From Clostridia bacterium DTU030 (GTDB taxonomy: Bacteria > Bacillota > DTU030), in assembly GCA_001513125.1 (NCBI GenBank), contig LFSN01000124.1, forward strand, positions 8,355-62,752: DNA of 54,398 bases, in the 5' to 3' direction. This document shows positions 21,616-54,350 of the stretch, piece after piece; position 1 is the stretch's first letter; each line of letters begins with the position of its first letter. The position numbers and the translations under genes were made by a program. The notes under the pieces were generated by a model. That model did not search any database. It saw nothing but the letters and a program-made list of their open reading frames with translations, and was not told the origin of the DNA.

Positions 21616-22140
21616 GTGCCTCCGATTAAAGAGCAGGATTTCATGGTTGTAGAGACCCGTTGGGGCTGGGTTGGGGTTGGCTTTTCTGAGGCCGGGTTGG
21701 TATCCTCCTCTTTGCCCCAGGAAAGCCGGGACCAGGTCGTAAAAAGGCTGCAGGCCTACCGTCAATTGGGGGAGGAGAGCGACTACCCCGGCCTGCGCCG
21801 GGATCTGGAGGACTACTTTGCCGGCAGGAAGGTGGATTTTCGCAGATACGCAATTGACTGGGAGGGCTGCACCCCTTTCCGGCGGCAGGTGCTGGAAAAA
21901 GCGGCGGCCATTCCCTATGGAGAAGTCAGGTCCTACCGTTGGTTGGCCCTGGAGGCGGCCGGGCGGCCGGGCTGCAGCAGGGCCGTAGGCGGTGCCATGG
22001 CGGCCAATCCCTTACCCCTCATTATTCCCTGCCACCGGGTGATCCGGAGCGATGGCGAACTGGGCGGTTTTGCCGGCGGTCTGGTCCTGAAGGCCCGGCT
22101 GCTGGAGCTGGAAGGGGTAAAACTGCCGCGCAAATCTTAA
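21616..22140 (+). CDS. ogt: Methylated-DNA--protein-cysteine methyltransferase
   Basis: This suicide repair protein removes O6-alkyl groups from guanine. The acceptor is Cys139 in the I-P-C-H-R motif. The recognition-helix region R-A-V-G-G-A-M-A-A-N and the trailing G-G-F-A-G-G-L motif are present. The GTG at 21616, after a GGGGGGAGCAGG tract, gives 174 residues, normal for Ogt. An ATG at 21643 is the alternative. A longer frame back to 21490 would lie inside the carboxypeptidase gene and is unlikely. It ends before a strong bidirectional terminator. Confidence 0.93.
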   Translation: MPPIKEQDFMVVETRWGWVGVGFSEAGLVSSSLPQESRDQVVKRLQAYRQLGEESDYPGLRRDLEDYFAGRKVDFRRYAIDWEGCTPFRRQVLEKAAAIPYGEVRSYRWLALEAAGRPGCSRAVGGAMAANPLPLIIPCHRVIRSDGELGGFAGGLVLKARLLELEGVKLPRKS

Positions 22141-22149
22141 GGAAAACAA

Positions 22150-22188
22150 AGGTGGGGGCTGTTCCCAGTAAAGGAACAGCCCCCACCT
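22150..22188. terminator. Bidirectional terminator between ogt and apbE
   Basis: A perfect 16-bp stem AGGTGGGGGCTGTTCC/GGAACAGCCCCCACCT with a 7-base loop lies between the convergent genes. T-rich tails are present on the minus side (TTTGTTTTCC) and partly on the plus side (ATTTACT). Confidence 0.92.
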
Positions 22189-22190
22189 AT

Positions 22191-23285
22191 TTACTCACTG
22201 CTATCATGGGCAGTGGCACCGTGGCTTGCCAACATTTTTTCCATGCCTTCCGTTACCTTCACGCTGCCGTCGGCCATGACCCAGAGGGCCTCGACACCGG
22301 GTAGGCTGTCGATTAGCCCTCTGCTTTCGGGATAAGGTAGTAAAAAGGCCGTTGTGGAGAGGAAGTCGGCCAGGCCTGAATCGGGGGCTACTATGGTTAC
22401 CCCCTTGTAGTACTTGGCCGGCATGAGGGTGTCAGGGTCAATTATGTGGTGGTAGATTTCACCGTCTACCGTGTAGTAACGCTGGTAATCGCCGCTGCTA
22501 ACTATGGCCGCATCGGTCACAAAGAGGGTATCGAAATAATCGCTGTTCCCATGCAGGGAAGCAATGGGGTCCTGTATGCCTATGGACCAGCGCTCCCGCT
22601 GGCCGTCGAGGGGTTTGCCGATGGTGCGCACATTGCCGCCGGCGCTGATGATTCCGGCTTCCAGGCCGGCAGCCACAACCTCCTGGACGACTAATTCTAC
22701 GGCGTAACCCTTGGCGATTGCCCCTACATCGAGGCTCATCCCTTCCTCGGCCAGGTAGACGGTCCCCTCCTCTGGGTCGACTATGACCTGGTCGAGATCC
22801 GTGTACCGGGCGGCCTGGCGGAGCTCTTCCGGGGGAGGGAGCTGGGCCTTGTCCGGGTCTTTAATGCCCTCGGTGCGGTAATCGTGCCAGATTTTCAGTA
22901 CGGGGCCCATGGCTATGTTGGTGCGGCCTCCCGTCCTTTGGTGCCAATCCTTGGCGAAGAGGAGCAGGTCGATTATTTCCTGGGCTGCGGGCACCGGTTT
23001 CCTGCCGGCATTATCGTTGATTGTTTTGATGTTGTTGATGCCCTCGTACTCGTGGTAGATGTCATAGAGCTGGTGGAGCTCCTGAAAGCGGCTTTCCAAA
23101 AGCTGGTAGTAAGTTTCGAACTCTTCTTCGCTTTTGGCATAGGCGACAAACTGGATGATGGTATCGAAGGTACCGAGAAAGCTCCTGCTGTAGCGCTCAT
23201 ATTCACTGGCCGGGCTTCTTCTGCAGCCTGTAAGAAGCAGGAGGAAGGACAAGAGGATTATAATGGGGCGTGTCAGTCTTTTCAT
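22191..23285 (-). CDS. apbE: FAD:protein FMN transferase ApbE, lipoprotein
   Basis: This extracytoplasmic flavin transferase is about 364 residues long. The signal K-R-L-T-R-P-I-I-I-L-L-S-F-L-L-L-L-T-G-C ends in a lipobox, so it is tethered outside the membrane. ApbE motifs D-V-G-A-I-A-K-G-Y-A-V, G-G-N-V-R-T and T-D-A-A-I-V-S-S-G-D-Y (metal site) are intact. The family attaches FMN covalently to a Ser/Thr of exported electron-transfer proteins. The next gene upstream encodes a lipoprotein flavin reductase, so the pair probably works together. AAAAGGTGAT supports the ATG at 23285; ATGs at 23291 and 23306 are alternatives. Confidence 0.93.
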   Translation of the reverse strand: MKRLTRPIIILLSFLLLLTGCRRSPASEYERYSRSFLGTFDTIIQFVAYAKSEEEFETYYQLLESRFQELHQLYDIYHEYEGINNIKTINDNAGRKPVPAAQEIIDLLLFAKDWHQRTGGRTNIAMGPVLKIWHDYRTEGIKDPDKAQLPPPEELRQAARYTDLDQVIVDPEEGTVYLAEEGMSLDVGAIAKGYAVELVVQEVVAAGLEAGIISAGGNVRTIGKPLDGQRERWSIGIQDPIASLHGNSDYFDTLFVTDAAIVSSGDYQRYYTVDGEIYHHIIDPDTLMPAKYYKGVTIVAPDSGLADFLSTTAFLLPYPESRGLIDSLPGVEALWVMADGSVKVTEGMEKMLASHGATAHDSSE

Positions 23286-39935: not shown

Positions 39936-40055
39936 CATATTATTGAAATAGATAATCCCCAGGGGAAGGGTTTTTCGGGAGTTCTGTCGAAATAGAAACT
40001 TAATGACAACTCTGGCAAGGCAGCACTTCTATTTGTAGGGGAGGTGGAAAAGATT

Positions 40056-41447
40056 ATGCGGATGGCCTTTCGCCTTAATATCGAACAAAGCCAAAGGCTG
40101 GTAATGACACCTGAACTTAGGCAGGCCATCACCGTATTGCAGCTATCTGCCCTAGAGCTTTCAGAATATATAGAACAGGAGCTTTTGGAAAATCCCCTTC
40201 TCGAGATGGAAAATGGCACCGCGGCAGAGGACGGAGCAGCTGCCAGGGAAGAGGAACCTTATGATCTGGATTGGCAGGAGTATTTTGCCGACACCAGTGA
40301 TTTGGGATATATAGGCAGGGGCACTGCCGAAAGCAGCTCCCATTCCGACTATTCCTTTGAACACTTCCTTTCCCGGGAATCAACCTTGTACGAACACTTG
40401 CTCTGGCAGTTACACCTGAATGTAAAGGATGGACCCAGGCGGCAGCTTGGTGAGTTTATCCTCGGCAACCTGGACGAAAACGGTTATCTGACCTGTCCAC
40501 CGGCAGAGATAGCCCGGCTCCAGGGGGTTACCGAAGGGGAAGTAAGGGAAGTTTTGGAGATTATCAAGACCTTTGACCCACCGGGGGTGGGGGCCGAGGA
40601 TTTGAAGGAATGCCTGCTGCTGCAGGTTAAGGCCCTGGAAATTGACTACCCCCTTCTGGAGATTATTATCAATTCTTATCTTCCCGATTTAGCCCAGGGC
40701 AGGCTGATGCGGGTGGCGGGAGAACTGGGGGTTTCGGTGCAGGAAATTCAAGCTGCCGGGGATTTTATCCGCACCCTCGATCCGAAACCGGGGCGGCGTT
40801 TTGGGCCGGTACCTGAGGGCAATTACATTGTTCCCGACGTGATCGTAGAAAAGGTGGGGGACGAGTACGTCATTATTGTCAGCGACGTTTCCTCACCCCG
40901 GCTGACAATTAACTCCAATTACCGGAATATCCTCCAGGCAAGGGATGCCGGCGACCAGGCCCGGGCCTACATTGAGTCCAAATTAAACTCGGCCCGCTGG
41001 TTGATCAAAAGCATCGAGCAGAGGCGCTTGACGGTCTACAAGATCGTGGAAACCCTGGTCCAGTTTCAGCGGGATTTCTTTGACCGGGGTGTTCGGTACC
41101 TGAAACCCTTAACCTTAAAAGAGGTGGCAGATGCAGTCGGGGTTCATGAATCTACGGTGAGCAGGGCTACCAGCAATAAATTCATTCAGACTCCTCGCGG
41201 TGTTTTCCCCTTGCGCTTCTTCTTTGCCAGTGGAGTGGAAAATACTGAGGGCTCCAGTACTTCCTCGGAGAGCATAAAGAAAATGCTGGAGGAGATAGTG
41301 GAAGGGGAGGACCCAAGTAAACCCTACAGTGATCAGAAACTGGCCGACATCCTGCGGGAACGGGGAATCATGATTTCACGGCGGACCGTGGCCAAGTACC
41401 GAAATGATCTCGGCATTCCACCTTCCAACTGCCGCAGGCGCTATTAA
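40056..41447 (+). CDS. rpoN: RNA polymerase sigma-54 factor RpoN
   Basis: This sigma factor of about 463 residues has the regions in order. The N-terminal activator-binding region begins L-N-I-E-Q-S-Q-R-L-V-M-T-P-E-L-R-Q-A-I. An acidic region and the core-binding domain follow (S-F-E-H-F-L-S-R and L-G-N-L-D-E-N-G-Y-L). The C-terminal helix-turn-helix has V-H-E-S-T-V-S-R-A, and the RpoN box S-R-R-T-V-A-K-Y-R recognises the -24 element. GGGGAGG precedes the ATG at 40056; GTG 40044 and ATG 40062 are alternatives. Placement before cggR and the glycolytic genes occurs in other Firmicutes. No sigma-54 activator gene is in the window. Confidence 0.96.
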   Translation: MRMAFRLNIEQSQRLVMTPELRQAITVLQLSALELSEYIEQELLENPLLEMENGTAAEDGAAAREEEPYDLDWQEYFADTSDLGYIGRGTAESSSHSDYSFEHFLSRESTLYEHLLWQLHLNVKDGPRRQLGEFILGNLDENGYLTCPPAEIARLQGVTEGEVREVLEIIKTFDPPGVGAEDLKECLLLQVKALEIDYPLLEIIINSYLPDLAQGRLMRVAGELGVSVQEIQAAGDFIRTLDPKPGRRFGPVPEGNYIVPDVIVEKVGDEYVIIVSDVSSPRLTINSNYRNILQARDAGDQARAYIESKLNSARWLIKSIEQRRLTVYKIVETLVQFQRDFFDRGVRYLKPLTLKEVADAVGVHESTVSRATSNKFIQTPRGVFPLRFFFASGVENTEGSSTSSESIKKMLEEIVEGEDPSKPYSDQKLADILRERGIMISRRTVAKYRNDLGIPPSNCRRRY

Positions 41448-41613: not shown

Positions 41614-42675
41614 ATGGACAAACTCCTGCAAATACTGCAAAAAACAGTACCCGATATGATAGCAGTCCTGGAAAAAAGATATACTATCATACGAACAGTA
41701 CAGCTTTATCAACCCATTGGGAGGCGTAATTTAGCCCGGCGCCTCGGGCAGGGAGAAAGGCAGCTGCGGGGAGAATTGGATTTTCTGCGCCAGGCAGGCC
41801 TGGTCAGGTATACCAGGGAGGGCGTTCTTTTAACCCATGAGGGCACCTCCCTCCTGTGGGATTTGACCCGCTATATGCATAAACTAAGGGGAGTGAGCGC
41901 CGTCGAACAGGGGCTAAAAAAGGCCTTCGCCCTCGAACAGGTGATAGTTGTGCCCGGGGATCTGGATCAGGATGAGCTGGTGAAAATGGATTTGGGGCGG
42001 GCGGCAGCCGCCTACCTCCAGGACAACCTGCAGGATGGCGATATCATTGCCGTCTCCGGGGGAACAACCATCGCCGAAGTGGCAAGAAACATGCCGGCCG
42101 GGAATCATGCCCGGGATCTGGTGGTAGTCCCGGCCCGGGGCAGCCTGGGAGAAGATCTGGAACTCCAGGCCAATACCATCGCTTCCCTCCTGGCCCGCAA
42201 GCTGGGGGGCAGCTACCGGCCCCTGCCTGTGCCCGATAATGTGGGCATAGATACCATTGCGGCCTTGAGCCAGGAACGCCAGATTAAGGAAGTTCTGTCC
42301 ATCATCCATGGGGCCACCTTTCTCCTCTTTAGTATTGGTGAGGCGGAAGTTATGGCCCGGCGCAGGGCCCTTTCGCCGGCTGAAATGGAGATCTTGCGGG
42401 AGAAGAAGGCAGTCGGCGAAGCCTTCGGCTATTACCTGAACCAAAGGGGGGAGATCGTCTACTATACACCCAGTATTGGCATGTCTCTGGAAGAAGTAGC
42501 CGCCATTCCCCATGTGGTTACGGTGGCCGGGGGCAAGAGTAAGGCTAGAGCTATGTTGGCCGTTCTGTCTTACCAGCCTGGCGGTGCTTTGATTACCGAT
42601 CAGGGAGCGGCCAATGAATTAATGAAATTATTATCACAGAAGGGGGGAGGAAAGGACGATAAATTGCTGGAGTGA
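41614..42675 (+). CDS. cggR: Central glycolytic genes regulator CggR
   Basis: The 353-residue SorC-family repressor has an N-terminal winged helix (G-R-R-N-L-A-R-R-L-G-Q-G-E-R-Q-L-R-G-E-L). The C-terminal sugar-phosphate-binding domain has D-I-I-A-V-S-G-G-T-T-I-A-E-V and V-V-V-P-A-R-G-S-L-G. In Bacillus CggR binds fructose-1,6-bisphosphate and then releases the gapA operon. The gene heads cggR-gap-pgk-tpiA-gpmI-eno here too, and its own leader carries a matching operator. The ATG follows AGGTGG. Confidence 0.94.
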   Translation: MDKLLQILQKTVPDMIAVLEKRYTIIRTVQLYQPIGRRNLARRLGQGERQLRGELDFLRQAGLVRYTREGVLLTHEGTSLLWDLTRYMHKLRGVSAVEQGLKKAFALEQVIVVPGDLDQDELVKMDLGRAAAAYLQDNLQDGDIIAVSGGTTIAEVARNMPAGNHARDLVVVPARGSLGEDLELQANTIASLLARKLGGSYRPLPVPDNVGIDTIAALSQERQIKEVLSIIHGATFLLFSIGEAEVMARRRALSPAEMEILREKKAVGEAFGYYLNQRGEIVYYTPSIGMSLEEVAAIPHVVTVAGGKSKARAMLAVLSYQPGGALITDQGAANELMKLLSQKGGGKDDKLLE

Positions 42676-42727: not shown

Positions 42728-43753
<1,026 letters not shown>

Positions 43754-43763
43754 GCCTCTTCTG

Positions 43764-43844
43764 TCCTGACCCCTGGGAGTTCAGCAGTTGGATATGGGAA
43801 GTAGAGATTTCCCATATCCACTGTCCCAGGGCCTGCGGTCAGGA
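43764..43844 (+). ncRNA. Long nested hairpin between gap and pgk
   Basis: Four paired segments nest perfectly: TCCTGACC (43764-43771) with GGTCAGGA (43837-43844), CCTGGGA (43772-43778) with TCCCAGG (43824-43830), CAGT (43785-43788) with ACTG (43820-43823), and GGATATGGGAA (43790-43800) with TTCCCATATCC (43809-43819). This gives 30 base pairs with small bulges. There is no T-run, so it is not an intrinsic terminator. It may stabilise or process the gap-pgk mRNA. The 10-bp palindrome GTAATATTAC follows at 43850-43859. Confidence 0.6.
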
Positions 43845-43905
43845 ACTCTGTAATATTACGGCTTTGGAAGGATACTAGTCAGATTTTGAGGCGGAGGTAG
43901 GAAAG

Positions 43906-45102
43906 GTGAAGAAAACCATCAGGGATATCGACGTCAGGGGCAAGAGGGTGCTGGTCAGGGTTGACTTCAACGTTCCCCTTGCCGAAGACGGGACAGTAGC
44001 CGACAGTACCAGGATCAGGGCTGCCCTGCCCACAATCCGCCATTTGCAGGAGCAGGGAGCGAAGATCATCCTCGTCTCCCACCTGGGACGCCCCAAGGGC
44101 AAAGTGGTGGAAGATTTGCGCATGGACCAGGTAGCCCGGACCCTGGCGGATTTGCTGCAGCATGAAGTTAAAAAGGTCGATGCCTGTATTGGTCCTGAGG
44201 TTGAAGAGGCCAGTGCTGCCCTAAAAGAAGGGGAAATCCTCCTTTTGGAGAACGTCCGCTTTTACCCGGGAGAAGAGAAAAACGATCCCGACTTTGCCCG
44301 GGCCCTGTCCCGCCTGGCCGACATCTTTGTCAATGATGCTTTCGGTACGGCCCACCGGGCCCACGGGTCCACCGCCGGTGTAGCTGCCTATCTCCCGGCT
44401 GTGGCCGGTTTCCTTCTGGAGAAGGAAATTGAAATGCTGGGCCGGGCCCTGTCTGCTCCCCAGCGCCCCTTTGTGGCCGTGCTGGGCGGGGCCAAGGTGT
44501 CGGATAAAATAAAGGTGATTACCAATCTCCTGTCCAAGGTAGATGCCCTCCTGGTCGGCGGGGGTATGGCCTATACCTTCCTGAAGGCCCAGGGCCACGG
44601 TATTGGCAATTCCCTCCTGGAAGAAGACAAGTTGGCGTTGGCCCGGGATATTATGGACCAGGCTGCCGCCCAGGGGGTGGACTTCTTCCTGCCCGAGGAT
44701 GTGGTGGTGGCAGCAGAGCTGAAGGCCGATGCCCCCCACCAGACGGTGTCTGTGACGGCAATACCGCCCGACAAGATGGGCGTCGACATCGGGCCCAAAA
44801 CCAGGGCCAGCTACGGAGAGGTCATCGCCGGGGCAGGAACGGTAATTTGGAATGGCCCCATGGGGGTTTTTGAACTGGAACCCTTTGCTGCTGGCACCCG
44901 TTCCGTTGCCGAGGCTATGGCTGAATGCCAGGGGATTACCATCATCGGCGGCGGCGACTCGGCGGCGGCAGTGGAAAAATTTGGCCTGGCCGAGGCCATG
45001 ACCCATGTTTCTACCGGCGGCGGTGCTTCCCTGGAGTTTTTGGAAGGCAAGGAACTGCCCGGCGTGGCAGCCCTGCTGGATAAGGACACTGCGGAAAGCT
45101 AG
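43906..45102 (+). CDS. pgk: Phosphoglycerate kinase
   Basis: The 398-residue enzyme transfers phosphate from 1,3-bisphosphoglycerate to ADP. It starts with K-K-T-I-R-D-I-D-V, followed by the signature [21 protein letters not shown] and G-G-G-D-S-A-A-A-V complete the two-domain pattern. GGAGG stands 7 bases before the GTG start. It is separated from gap by 152 bp with strong RNA structure, and is 22 bp before tpiA. Confidence 0.98.
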
Positions 45103-48791: not shown

Positions 48792-48846
48792 TCATTGGCG
48801 GAAAGATAATAATCTCTTAAATGCTGGAAATCTAAGGCGACTGGAC

Positions 48847-48883
48847 ACGGTGTGCAGGCTCTGCTGGGCACACCGTTTTTTTT
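48847..48883 (+). terminator. Terminator of the glycolytic operon
   Basis: ACGGTGTGC pairs perfectly with GCACACCGT over a 12-base loop and is followed by eight T residues. Confidence 0.95.
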
Positions 48884-48929
48884 CTGAAAAATCCTTCCAG
48901 CAGGCTTAGCGTCTAAAGGCCACCTTCTG

Positions 48930-51551: not shown

Positions 51552-53660
51552 TTGATTGAGAAGGAAGACATTCTACTGTTTATGGAAAAAGAAGCCAGCA
51601 AGCCGGTAGCGCTGGCTGAGATCGGGGAATATTTTCGCATTGAAGAAGGTCACTATGACTCCCTGCGGGAAGTTCTGGAGACCCTGGAAGATGAAGGGAG
51701 GATAGTGCGGGTCCGGAAGGGGAAGTATGCCCTACCTGAGCGCTTGAATATGCTGGTGGGCCGGCTGCAGGGCCATCCCCGGGGCTATGGTTTTGTCCTG
51801 GTGGAGGGGGGAGATGATGTCTATATCCCGGCCGACAGGATGCACGGGGCCATGCACAATGACCGGGTGCTGATTAAGATTAAAAGTGCAGTCCTTGCCG
51901 GAAAATCCCGGGAGGGGGAGGTTGTCCGGATCCTGGACCGGGCCAATGAACGGATCGTCGGCACCTATACGGGAACCAAACGCTACGGCTTTGTAGTCCC
52001 GGAAGAAAAGAGGATCTGGCAGGATATCTTCATTCCCGGAACGGCCAGCGGGGAAGCCAGGAGTGGGGATTTGGTCATAGCCGCCATAACCAGGTGGCCC
52101 CAGGAGAAGCGCAATCCCGAAGGGGAGATTGTGGAGGTCCTTGGCCACAAGGATGCCCCGGGCATAGATATCCTGGGCATAATAAAAAAGTACCACTTAG
52201 AGGAAAACTTTCCAGAGCCGGTGCTGCGGGAAGCTGAGGGTCTCCCTTCAGTAGTAAAGGGGGAGGAAATAATTGGCCGCACCGACCTGCGGCAGCTGCA
52301 GACTGTAACCATCGATAATGATGACGCCCGGGATCTGGATGATGCCCTCTCCATAGAAAAGAAGGTCAATGGCAATTACCTGCTGGGGGTGCACATTGCC
52401 GATGTTGGCCATTATGTAGCAGAGGATAGCGTCCTGGATAAAGAGGCCCGGAAACGGGGCTGCAGTGTCTATTTCCCCGACAGGGTAATACCCATGCTGC
52501 CGCCCCGCCTCTCCAACGGCATCTGCAGCCTTAACGAAGGGGAGGACCGCCTAGCCTTGACAGTCTTTATTGAAGTGGATCCCGGGGGGACGGTGATATC
52601 CTATGAGATTATGGAATCGGTGATCAATGTTGCCAGGCGGCTGAGCTACAGCACCGTCAATGAGATTATTGCCGGCAACGAAGAAATGCAGCGTCAGTAC
52701 AGTGAGCTGGTCCCTGACCTGGAATTAATGGATGAGCTGCGCCAGGTCTTGAAGGAAAGGCGGAGGAAGCGGGGGAGCATTGATTTTAACTTCCGGGAGA
52801 GGACGGTGAAACTCGATGACTGGGGCCGGCCGGTAGAGGTTGAGTTCAGGGAACGCACTGTGGCCGACGAGATGGTGGAAGAATTTATGATCCTGGCCAA
52901 TGAAGTGATTGCCGAACACGTCTACTGGCTGAATCTGCCCTTTATATACCGGGTCCATGAAAAACCAAATCCCGATGACATCGCCTTCATGCGGGAGTTT
53001 CTCCATAATTTGGGCTATCCCTTGCGGGCCAGGAAACGGGTGGGGACCAAGAACTTGCAGGCTGTCCTCGCCTATGCCCAGGGCAGGCCCGAGGAACGGC
53101 TGGTCAATGAAGTGGTCCTGCGTTCCTTGAAAAGGGCCCGTTATTCGGCTGACTGCCTGGGACACTTTGGACTGGCCACCAAATTCTACACCCATTTTAC
53201 CTCGCCCATTCGCCGCTATCCCGATCTTACCATTCACCGGATTATCAAGGCCATGCTCAAGGATGCCCTGGACGAGAAGCAGCTGCGGAAGCTGGCTGAG
53301 AAGCTGGTGGTCATAGCTGAGGAAGCCTCCCAGCGGGAGCGGATTGCCGAGGAGGCGGAACAGGAAACGGTGGATCTGAAGATCGTCGAGTATATGAAGG
53401 CCAAGGAAGGCCAGGTTTTTGCCGGTGTAATTAGCGGGGTGACGCCCTTTGGTATTTTTGTCCAATTGGCCAATGGGGTAGAAGGGCTGGTGCATGTGAG
53501 CAGTATCACCGATGACTATTATCATTACCTGGAGAAGCAGTTGGCCCTGCAGGGAGAGCGGACGAAAAAACGCTACCGGATCGGTGACAAAGTCCGGGTT
53601 CTGCTGACCAAGGCCAATTTGGCCGATCGAACCATCGATTTTGAGTTGGTTGATGATTAG
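51552..53660 (+). CDS. rnr: Ribonuclease R
   Basis: The 702-residue 3'-5' exoribonuclease handles structured RNA and trans-translation decay. An N-terminal helix-turn-helix region and two OB/cold-shock domains (G-R-L-Q-G-H-P-R-G-Y-G-F near 77) are followed by the RNB domain, with D-N-D-D-A-R-D-L-D-D-A-L-S near 258-270 holding the catalytic Asp residues. H-F-G-L-A and an S1 domain (G-V-I-S-G-V-T-P-F-G-I-F-V-Q, about 623-700) follow. AAGGAGGG stands 9 bases before the TTG start. The usual partner smpB does not follow; insertion-sequence DNA begins within 50 bp. Confidence 0.96.
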   Translation: MIEKEDILLFMEKEASKPVALAEIGEYFRIEEGHYDSLREVLETLEDEGRIVRVRKGKYALPERLNMLVGRLQGHPRGYGFVLVEGGDDVYIPADRMHGAMHNDRVLIKIKSAVLAGKSREGEVVRILDRANERIVGTYTGTKRYGFVVPEEKRIWQDIFIPGTASGEARSGDLVIAAITRWPQEKRNPEGEIVEVLGHKDAPGIDILGIIKKYHLEENFPEPVLREAEGLPSVVKGEEIIGRTDLRQLQTVTIDNDDARDLDDALSIEKKVNGNYLLGVHIADVGHYVAEDSVLDKEARKRGCSVYFPDRVIPMLPPRLSNGICSLNEGEDRLALTVFIEVDPGGTVISYEIMESVINVARRLSYSTVNEIIAGNEEMQRQYSELVPDLELMDELRQVLKERRRKRGSIDFNFRERTVKLDDWGRPVEVEFRERTVADEMVEEFMILANEVIAEHVYWLNLPFIYRVHEKPNPDDIAFMREFLHNLGYPLRARKRVGTKNLQAVLAYAQGRPEERLVNEVVLRSLKRARYSADCLGHFGLATKFYTHFTSPIRRYPDLTIHRIIKAMLKDALDEKQLRKLAEKLVVIAEEASQRERIAEEAEQETVDLKIVEYMKAKEGQVFAGVISGVTPFGIFVQLANGVEGLVHVSSITDDYYHYLEKQLALQGERTKKRYRIGDKVRVLLTKANLADRTIDFELVDD

Positions 53661-53699: not shown

Positions 53700-54340
53700 T
53701 AGTGTAAAATTATTGTAGGTAAAAAATAAACAAGAGATCGTCCTTTTTGGTAAAATGAAGTTGCCACAACAATTACCAAAGGAGGAGATCTCTTGTTTAA
53801 TACTATTCTACTACAAATCTGTGAAAATTTCATAAGGGGAGTAGCAGAATTTTTCATTGAAGGTAATGGGCCTAAAACGATAACTGAGATGGAGGTACAT
53901 CTAAAGGAGAAGGCGGATAATTTTATATTAGCTTTTATGAAAGCTTACCTGGAGGAGCTAAATAAATCCATAGTTGATGATAAAGCAAATAGGAGAAAGG
54001 AAGGAATTGTAATTGAACGTAGGAACGATAAGCGGGAGCTGTATACACAGTTTGGGCAACTCATATTTAGTAGAACCTATTTCCATGACAAAAAGAACGA
54101 CGAGTACGTCTATTTATTGGATAAAGCTGTTGGGATAGAGAACTACCAACGCATATCTGATACTGTCACCCAAAATCTCATAGAGTGTGCGAGTGAAACC
54201 TCATACGGTAAAACGAGCAAATATGTTACAAATGGAGCTGTAAGCCGGCAAACAGTGATGAATAAGCTGCATAGGGTAAGGAACTTAAAAGTGGTTCCAC
54301 CCGCCGAGAAGCGCCAGGCATCGGTATTATATGTAAATTA
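53700..54340 (+). mobile_element. 5' part of an ISLre2-type insertion sequence
   Basis: Base composition drops sharply to AT-rich at about 53700, just after rnr. The segment contains an ISLre2-family transposase start and its leader hairpin, then ends where another element begins at 54341. The exact left end was not identified; it probably lies near AGTGTAAAATTATTG at 53701. The rest of the element is outside the window or lost. Confidence 0.7.
53727..53799 (+). promoter_or_regulatory. Hairpin sequestering the transposase start
   Basis: TAAACAAGAGATC (53727-53739) pairs perfectly with GATCTCTTGTTTA (53787-53799). Inside, TCC-TTT-GGTAA (53741-53753) pairs with TTACC-AAA-GGA (53773-53783), with a small bulge. 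The helix covers AAAGGAGG and the TTG start. Transcripts entering from outside the element would fold this way and block translation, as known for other transposase leaders. Confidence 0.65.
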
Positions 54341-54350
54341 TAGATCGTAA
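53793..54350 (+). pseudogene. Truncated ISLre2-family transposase
   Basis: The open frame has 185 residues, against about 450-480 for a full ISLre2 (UPF0236) transposase. The first ~180 residues look native, including R-R-K-E-G-I-V-I-E-R-R and a Q-F-G-Q-L-I-F-S-R-T-Y-F segment, and run to A-S-V-L-Y-V. The frame then leaves the family, where D-A-D-E-D-H is expected, and stops after Y-R-S. The break matches the boundary with a second element. A TTG start follows AAAGGAGG. It is likely inactive unless the distal part lies beyond the second insertion and can be restored by excision. Confidence 0.8.

Follow-up and report, generated by a model that had tools for sequence, protein, structure and literature searches.

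A single-copy, genus-restricted stem-loop between gap and pgk in Clostridia bacterium DTU030 is most likely a 3'-end stabiliser of gap mRNA

The window analysed here is a 54,398-nucleotide stretch of the Clostridia bacterium DTU030 assembly (GCA_001513125.1, contig LFSN01000124.1, positions 8,355 to 62,752). It carries, in order, the sigma-54 gene rpoN (40044-41447), a gene for a SorC/DeoR-like regulator that we call cggR from its position (41614-42675), gap, pgk, tpi, gpmI and eno, with an RNase R gene (51552-53660) a few genes past the glycolytic operon. RNase R can break down structured RNA, and the genome also encodes RNase Y, PNPase, RNase III and Rho. The gap open reading frame (42743..43753, forward strand) specifies a type I glyceraldehyde-3-phosphate dehydrogenase of 336 amino acids, which matches NCBIfam TIGR01534 with 445 bits against a cut-off of 367. 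The open reading frame for phosphoglycerate kinase, pgk, opens with GTG (43906..45102, forward strand) and is preceded by a ribosome-binding region (GGCGGAGGTAGGAAAG, 43890..43905, forward strand) that is well conserved in G001, a genome of the same genus. Judging by gene order and spacing, cggR-gap-pgk-tpi-gpmI-eno would form one operon. Between the gap stop codon, which ends at 43753, and the pgk start lie 152 nt that fold with -63.1 kcal/mol. The junctions further down measure 28 nt (pgk-tpi), about 8 nt (tpi-gpmI) and 41 nt (gpmI-eno), and the gap-pgk spacer is the only long, structured one within the operon.

This spacer holds a stem-loop of about 32 bp (43764..43844, forward strand) that starts 10 nt past the gap stop codon and is interrupted by two 6-nt bulges and one 1-nt bulge. 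From the outside in, it consists of an 8-bp helix (TCCTGACC at 43764-43771 with GGTCAGGA at 43837-43844), a 7-bp middle helix (CCTGGGA at 43772-43778 with TCCCAGG at 43824-43830), the two 6-nt bulges, one on each side (43779-43784 and 43831-43836), a 3-bp helix (CAG at 43785-43787 with CTG at 43821-43823) and, parted from the latter by a single bulged T, a central helix of 12/13 bp (TGGATATGGGAA at 43789-43800 with TTCCCATATCCA at 43809-43820). No U-run follows the hairpin on its 3' side. The initial annotation, which had described a nested hairpin of four complementary blocks with no U-run and a palindrome behind it, had the sequence and its coordinates right.

As an isolated element of 81 nt, the stem-loop folds with -47.4 kcal/mol (z -5.98); 200 dinucleotide shuffles gave -26.4 +/- 3.5, and all of them were less stable. 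When 90-nt windows across the whole 54 kb were ranked by composition-corrected stability, the gap-pgk hairpin came third; in raw energy, several GC-rich stretches lie below it. The second rank belongs to a strong perfect hairpin at 22126-22215 (AGGTGGGGGCTGTTCC...GGAACAGCCCCCACCT). The fold in the window that departs most from expectation (z -9.1) is an imperfect 44-nt inverted repeat at 53716-53816, immediately 5' of a truncated ISLre2-type transposase gene (region 53793-54350), on whose 3' side we observed sequence like another insertion-element end.

Several other uses of the spacer found no backing. The palindrome GTAATATTAC, located 3' of the hairpin (43850..43859, forward strand), reads GTAACATTAC in G001, where the perfect palindrome is not kept. 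With one mismatch it has six strand-wise matches in the genome, at three places, against seven for a reversed control; because it is not over-represented, we rejected it as a regulator operator. The sole open reading frame across the hairpin region is a 61-aa frame that starts within gap. The spacer differs from that of G001 by indels of 16, 8, 2 and 1 nt, and the frames in G001 hold stops or differ, so that a small coding gene is unsupported, as the initial annotation had judged. A scan for the sigma-70 consensus found no internal pgk promoter in the spacer, and an Rfam search returned only chance matches, far under the gathering cut-offs.

In G001, the gap-pgk spacer measures 179 nt and carries, at the corresponding position, a diverged homologue of the hairpin (z -3.59), which again has no U-run after it. 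What G001 keeps is the 16-bp central stem (43785..43823, forward strand) together with an outer clamp of 5 bp, whose halves TCCTG (43764..43768) and CAGGA (43840..43844, both forward strand) are identical in the two genomes. The two left arms of the central stem agree at 15 of 16 positions. The right arms show three differences, a deletion and an insertion of one base each and a substitution, yet pairing is kept throughout, with the bulged U shifted to the opposite end of the stem. Specifically, the outermost pair (43785-43823) is C-G here and U-A in G001; that is, both sides have changed. Covariation, which had been proposed as a check on an RNA role, is thus represented by one compensatory pair in a comparison of two sequences. 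Conservation does not extend to the middle helix: the 7-bp helix that G001 could form in its stead is a different one and is absent from its best fold, and the nested shape scores -27.8 there, compared with -37.3 for the best fold. What the two genomes share is therefore the central hairpin with its clamp; the nested stem in its full form is specific to this species.

Hairpins at this junction are not peculiar to one genus. We collected spacers from 30 genomes (that of the window and its relatives) and from 80 loci found by gap similarity, of which 106 gap-pgk spacers were usable; the set is rich in Bacilli and its start codons were called automatically, so the numbers are approximate. A strong compact hairpin was present in 50 of the 106 gap-pgk spacers, in 4 of 67 pgk-tpi spacers from the same loci, and in 4 of 505 shuffled sequences. 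For loci with both junctions, discordant cases ran 31 to 4 (p = 3.5e-6, uncorrected for relatedness). Grouped into genus-level or unnamed units, 28 of 69 had the hairpin in the majority of their members. Part of the contrast between the junctions is explained by spacer length, the median being 118 nt for gap-pgk and 26 nt for pgk-tpi; when only spacers of 60 nt or more are counted, the hairpin occurs in 39 of 64 and 4 of 14, respectively (p = 0.04). The hairpin sequences are unrelated between groups. The hairpin described here is a new example of its kind, and such hairpins at gap-pgk junctions are already common in related bacteria.

Unequal expression of gap and pgk has been noted before. 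In the gap-pgk operon of Zymomonas mobilis, it was reportedly attributed by Eddy et al. in 1989 to the stability of mRNA segments; this bacterium is unrelated, and the likeness drawn here is that of unequal expression from one operon. Parallels also come from operons under selective RNA processing and stabilisation (SRPS), for example cip-cel of Clostridium (Ruminiclostridium) cellulolyticum (PMC4423207, PMC10311766, PMC8219983), also in a gram-positive anaerobe, where a strong stem-loop lies 3' of an internal cistron, mostly with no U-run, and the preceding gene is expected to be the more abundant. In that species the stem-loops by intergenic processing sites mostly lack U-runs, and their stability correlates with the transcript abundance of the adjacent gene (PMC4423207). 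The operon is a different one, with mapped processing sites, and the fold here (-47 kcal/mol) is more stable than the C. cellulolyticum range of -6.6 to -31.8. SLOFE uses such stem-loops to predict operon stoichiometry; the paper on it counts gapA of B. subtilis among the SRPS cases (PMC8219983). The B. subtilis operon, cggR-gapA-pgk-tpi-pgm-eno, has the same gene order as ours and expresses gapA apart from the downstream genes, with RNase Y cleavage in cggR, a hairpin-stabilised gapA mRNA and a separate 1.2-kb gapA transcript (PMC10470536, PMC11780869). A gapA probe detects mRNAs of 2.2 and 1.2 kb (cggR-gapA and gapA) and a large read-through transcript that includes pgk to eno (PMC10470536). 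Mutational tests there concerned a stabilising hairpin at the 5' end of processed gapA mRNA, while the hairpin in the window is 3' of gap.

We propose, with a probability of roughly 0.55, that the stem-loop is an SRPS-type element that stops 3'-5' decay of cggR-gap mRNA after its processing, thereby lifting gap above pgk. This reading draws on the position of the element, the missing U-run, the central stem shared with G001, the recurrence of hairpins in relatives and the published precedent. The features found are those of an SRPS-type element: a stable stem-loop in the 3' UTR, inside what appears to be a polycistronic operon, with no U-run; this anatomy fits a stabilising stem-loop better than a terminator. 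RNA polymerase would mostly read through the stem-loop, which would become part of the gap 3' untranslated region. Endonucleolytic cleavage downstream of the stem, probably by RNase Y, or decay of the distal mRNA would then expose it to 3'-5' exonucleases, of which PNPase would be halted and RNase R less so. The (cggR-)gap segment would outlast the pgk-eno segment, and each transcript would yield more GapDH than Pgk. We infer all three of its elements, that is, the cleavage, the decay block and the effect on stoichiometry. The suggestion in the initial annotation that the hairpin sets gap:pgk stoichiometry through mRNA ends therefore stands as the best hypothesis.

A possible but doubtful alternative is that the hairpin acts during transcription, as a partial terminator or pause site (an unusual intrinsic one, or one assisted by Rho/NusG) that lowers pgk transcription after gap. 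The genome encodes Rho, and 27 of the 50 gap-pgk hairpins in our survey do have a T-run and are of the partial-terminator type; U-runs were counted by the compact-hairpin method, as whole-spacer folds hid U-runs inside stems. Many of the surveyed Bacillus hairpins have the U-run typical of read-through terminators, and in Clostridium beijerinckii, where a hairpin likewise directly follows gap, read coverage drops downstream of it at a predicted intrinsic terminator (PMC3271303). In an intrinsic terminator, however, a U-run comes directly after a GC-rich hairpin, and neither the hairpin in the window nor that of G001 has one. A terminator scan of 41-49 kb did not list the gap-pgk hairpin. The operon's own terminator looks different: the hairpin with T8 that follows eno (48842-48885) is probably the intrinsic terminator of the glycolytic operon, and is what a terminator looks like here.

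It is also unlikely, and slightly more so, that the stem has no function today and is either the relic of a mobile palindromic element or an inverted repeat that arose by chance. Its distribution is what gives this idea weight. In the sister genus (G003 and G004), the gap-pgk spacers are 78-80 nt long and unstructured, with no hairpin, so the element is dispensable over longer times and either arose in this genus or was kept only there. In a further genome of the same genus (G002, 79% complete) we did not find pgk, and the gap match was a distant one at 52% identity, so this genome carries no information on the junction. Most of the spacer also diverges at a nearly neutral rate: identity to G001 is 75% over the aligned sites of the whole spacer and 69% at third codon positions of gap, and this similarity, together with the 8- and 16-nt indels that change its length, implies that only the central stem and the ribosome-binding region are under constraint. 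The central stem, however, has been retained while its flanks diverged, and independent hairpins occupy the same junction in many relatives. Nor is there a further copy. A BLAST search of the spacer against the whole genome (1.81 Mb, 95% complete) returned only the self match, the remaining matches being weak fragments or the inverted repeat against its own other strand. Across the five genomes that the family search returned, BLAST gave no other copy, and a covariance model derived from the sequences of this genome and G001 matched nothing but these. A dispersed palindromic repeat or MITE requires several similar copies, so we rejected it, and with it the mobile-repeat option of the initial annotation, which had named a genome-wide copy search as the way to decide.

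Even less probable is a double-strand cleavage site for RNase III that splits gap from the pgk-eno mRNA. The near-continuous duplex of about 32 pairs is long enough and the enzyme is encoded, but the 16-bp stem and 5-bp clamp retained by G001 fall below typical substrate length, and a long duplex is therefore not a conserved property. We give very little credence to a genus-specific structured RNA, made of the hairpin and the motif GUAAYAUUAC that follows it, that would be a regulated decay or read-through switch responsive to a protein or metabolite and not a passive barrier.

The single element described here is modest, and the wider pattern at the junction is more useful. The recurrence of unrelated hairpins between gap and pgk, only some of them terminator-like, suggests that an excess of GapDH over Pgk evolved repeatedly, and by two mechanisms; existing RNA-seq data from cultured Bacillota could test this pattern. 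Within the survey, several Paenibacillus gap-pgk spacers (for example, those of loci L055, L061, L063, L119 and L123) are 260-570 nt long and fold very stably, with z values reaching -9; additional conserved RNA elements or repeats may be present in them.
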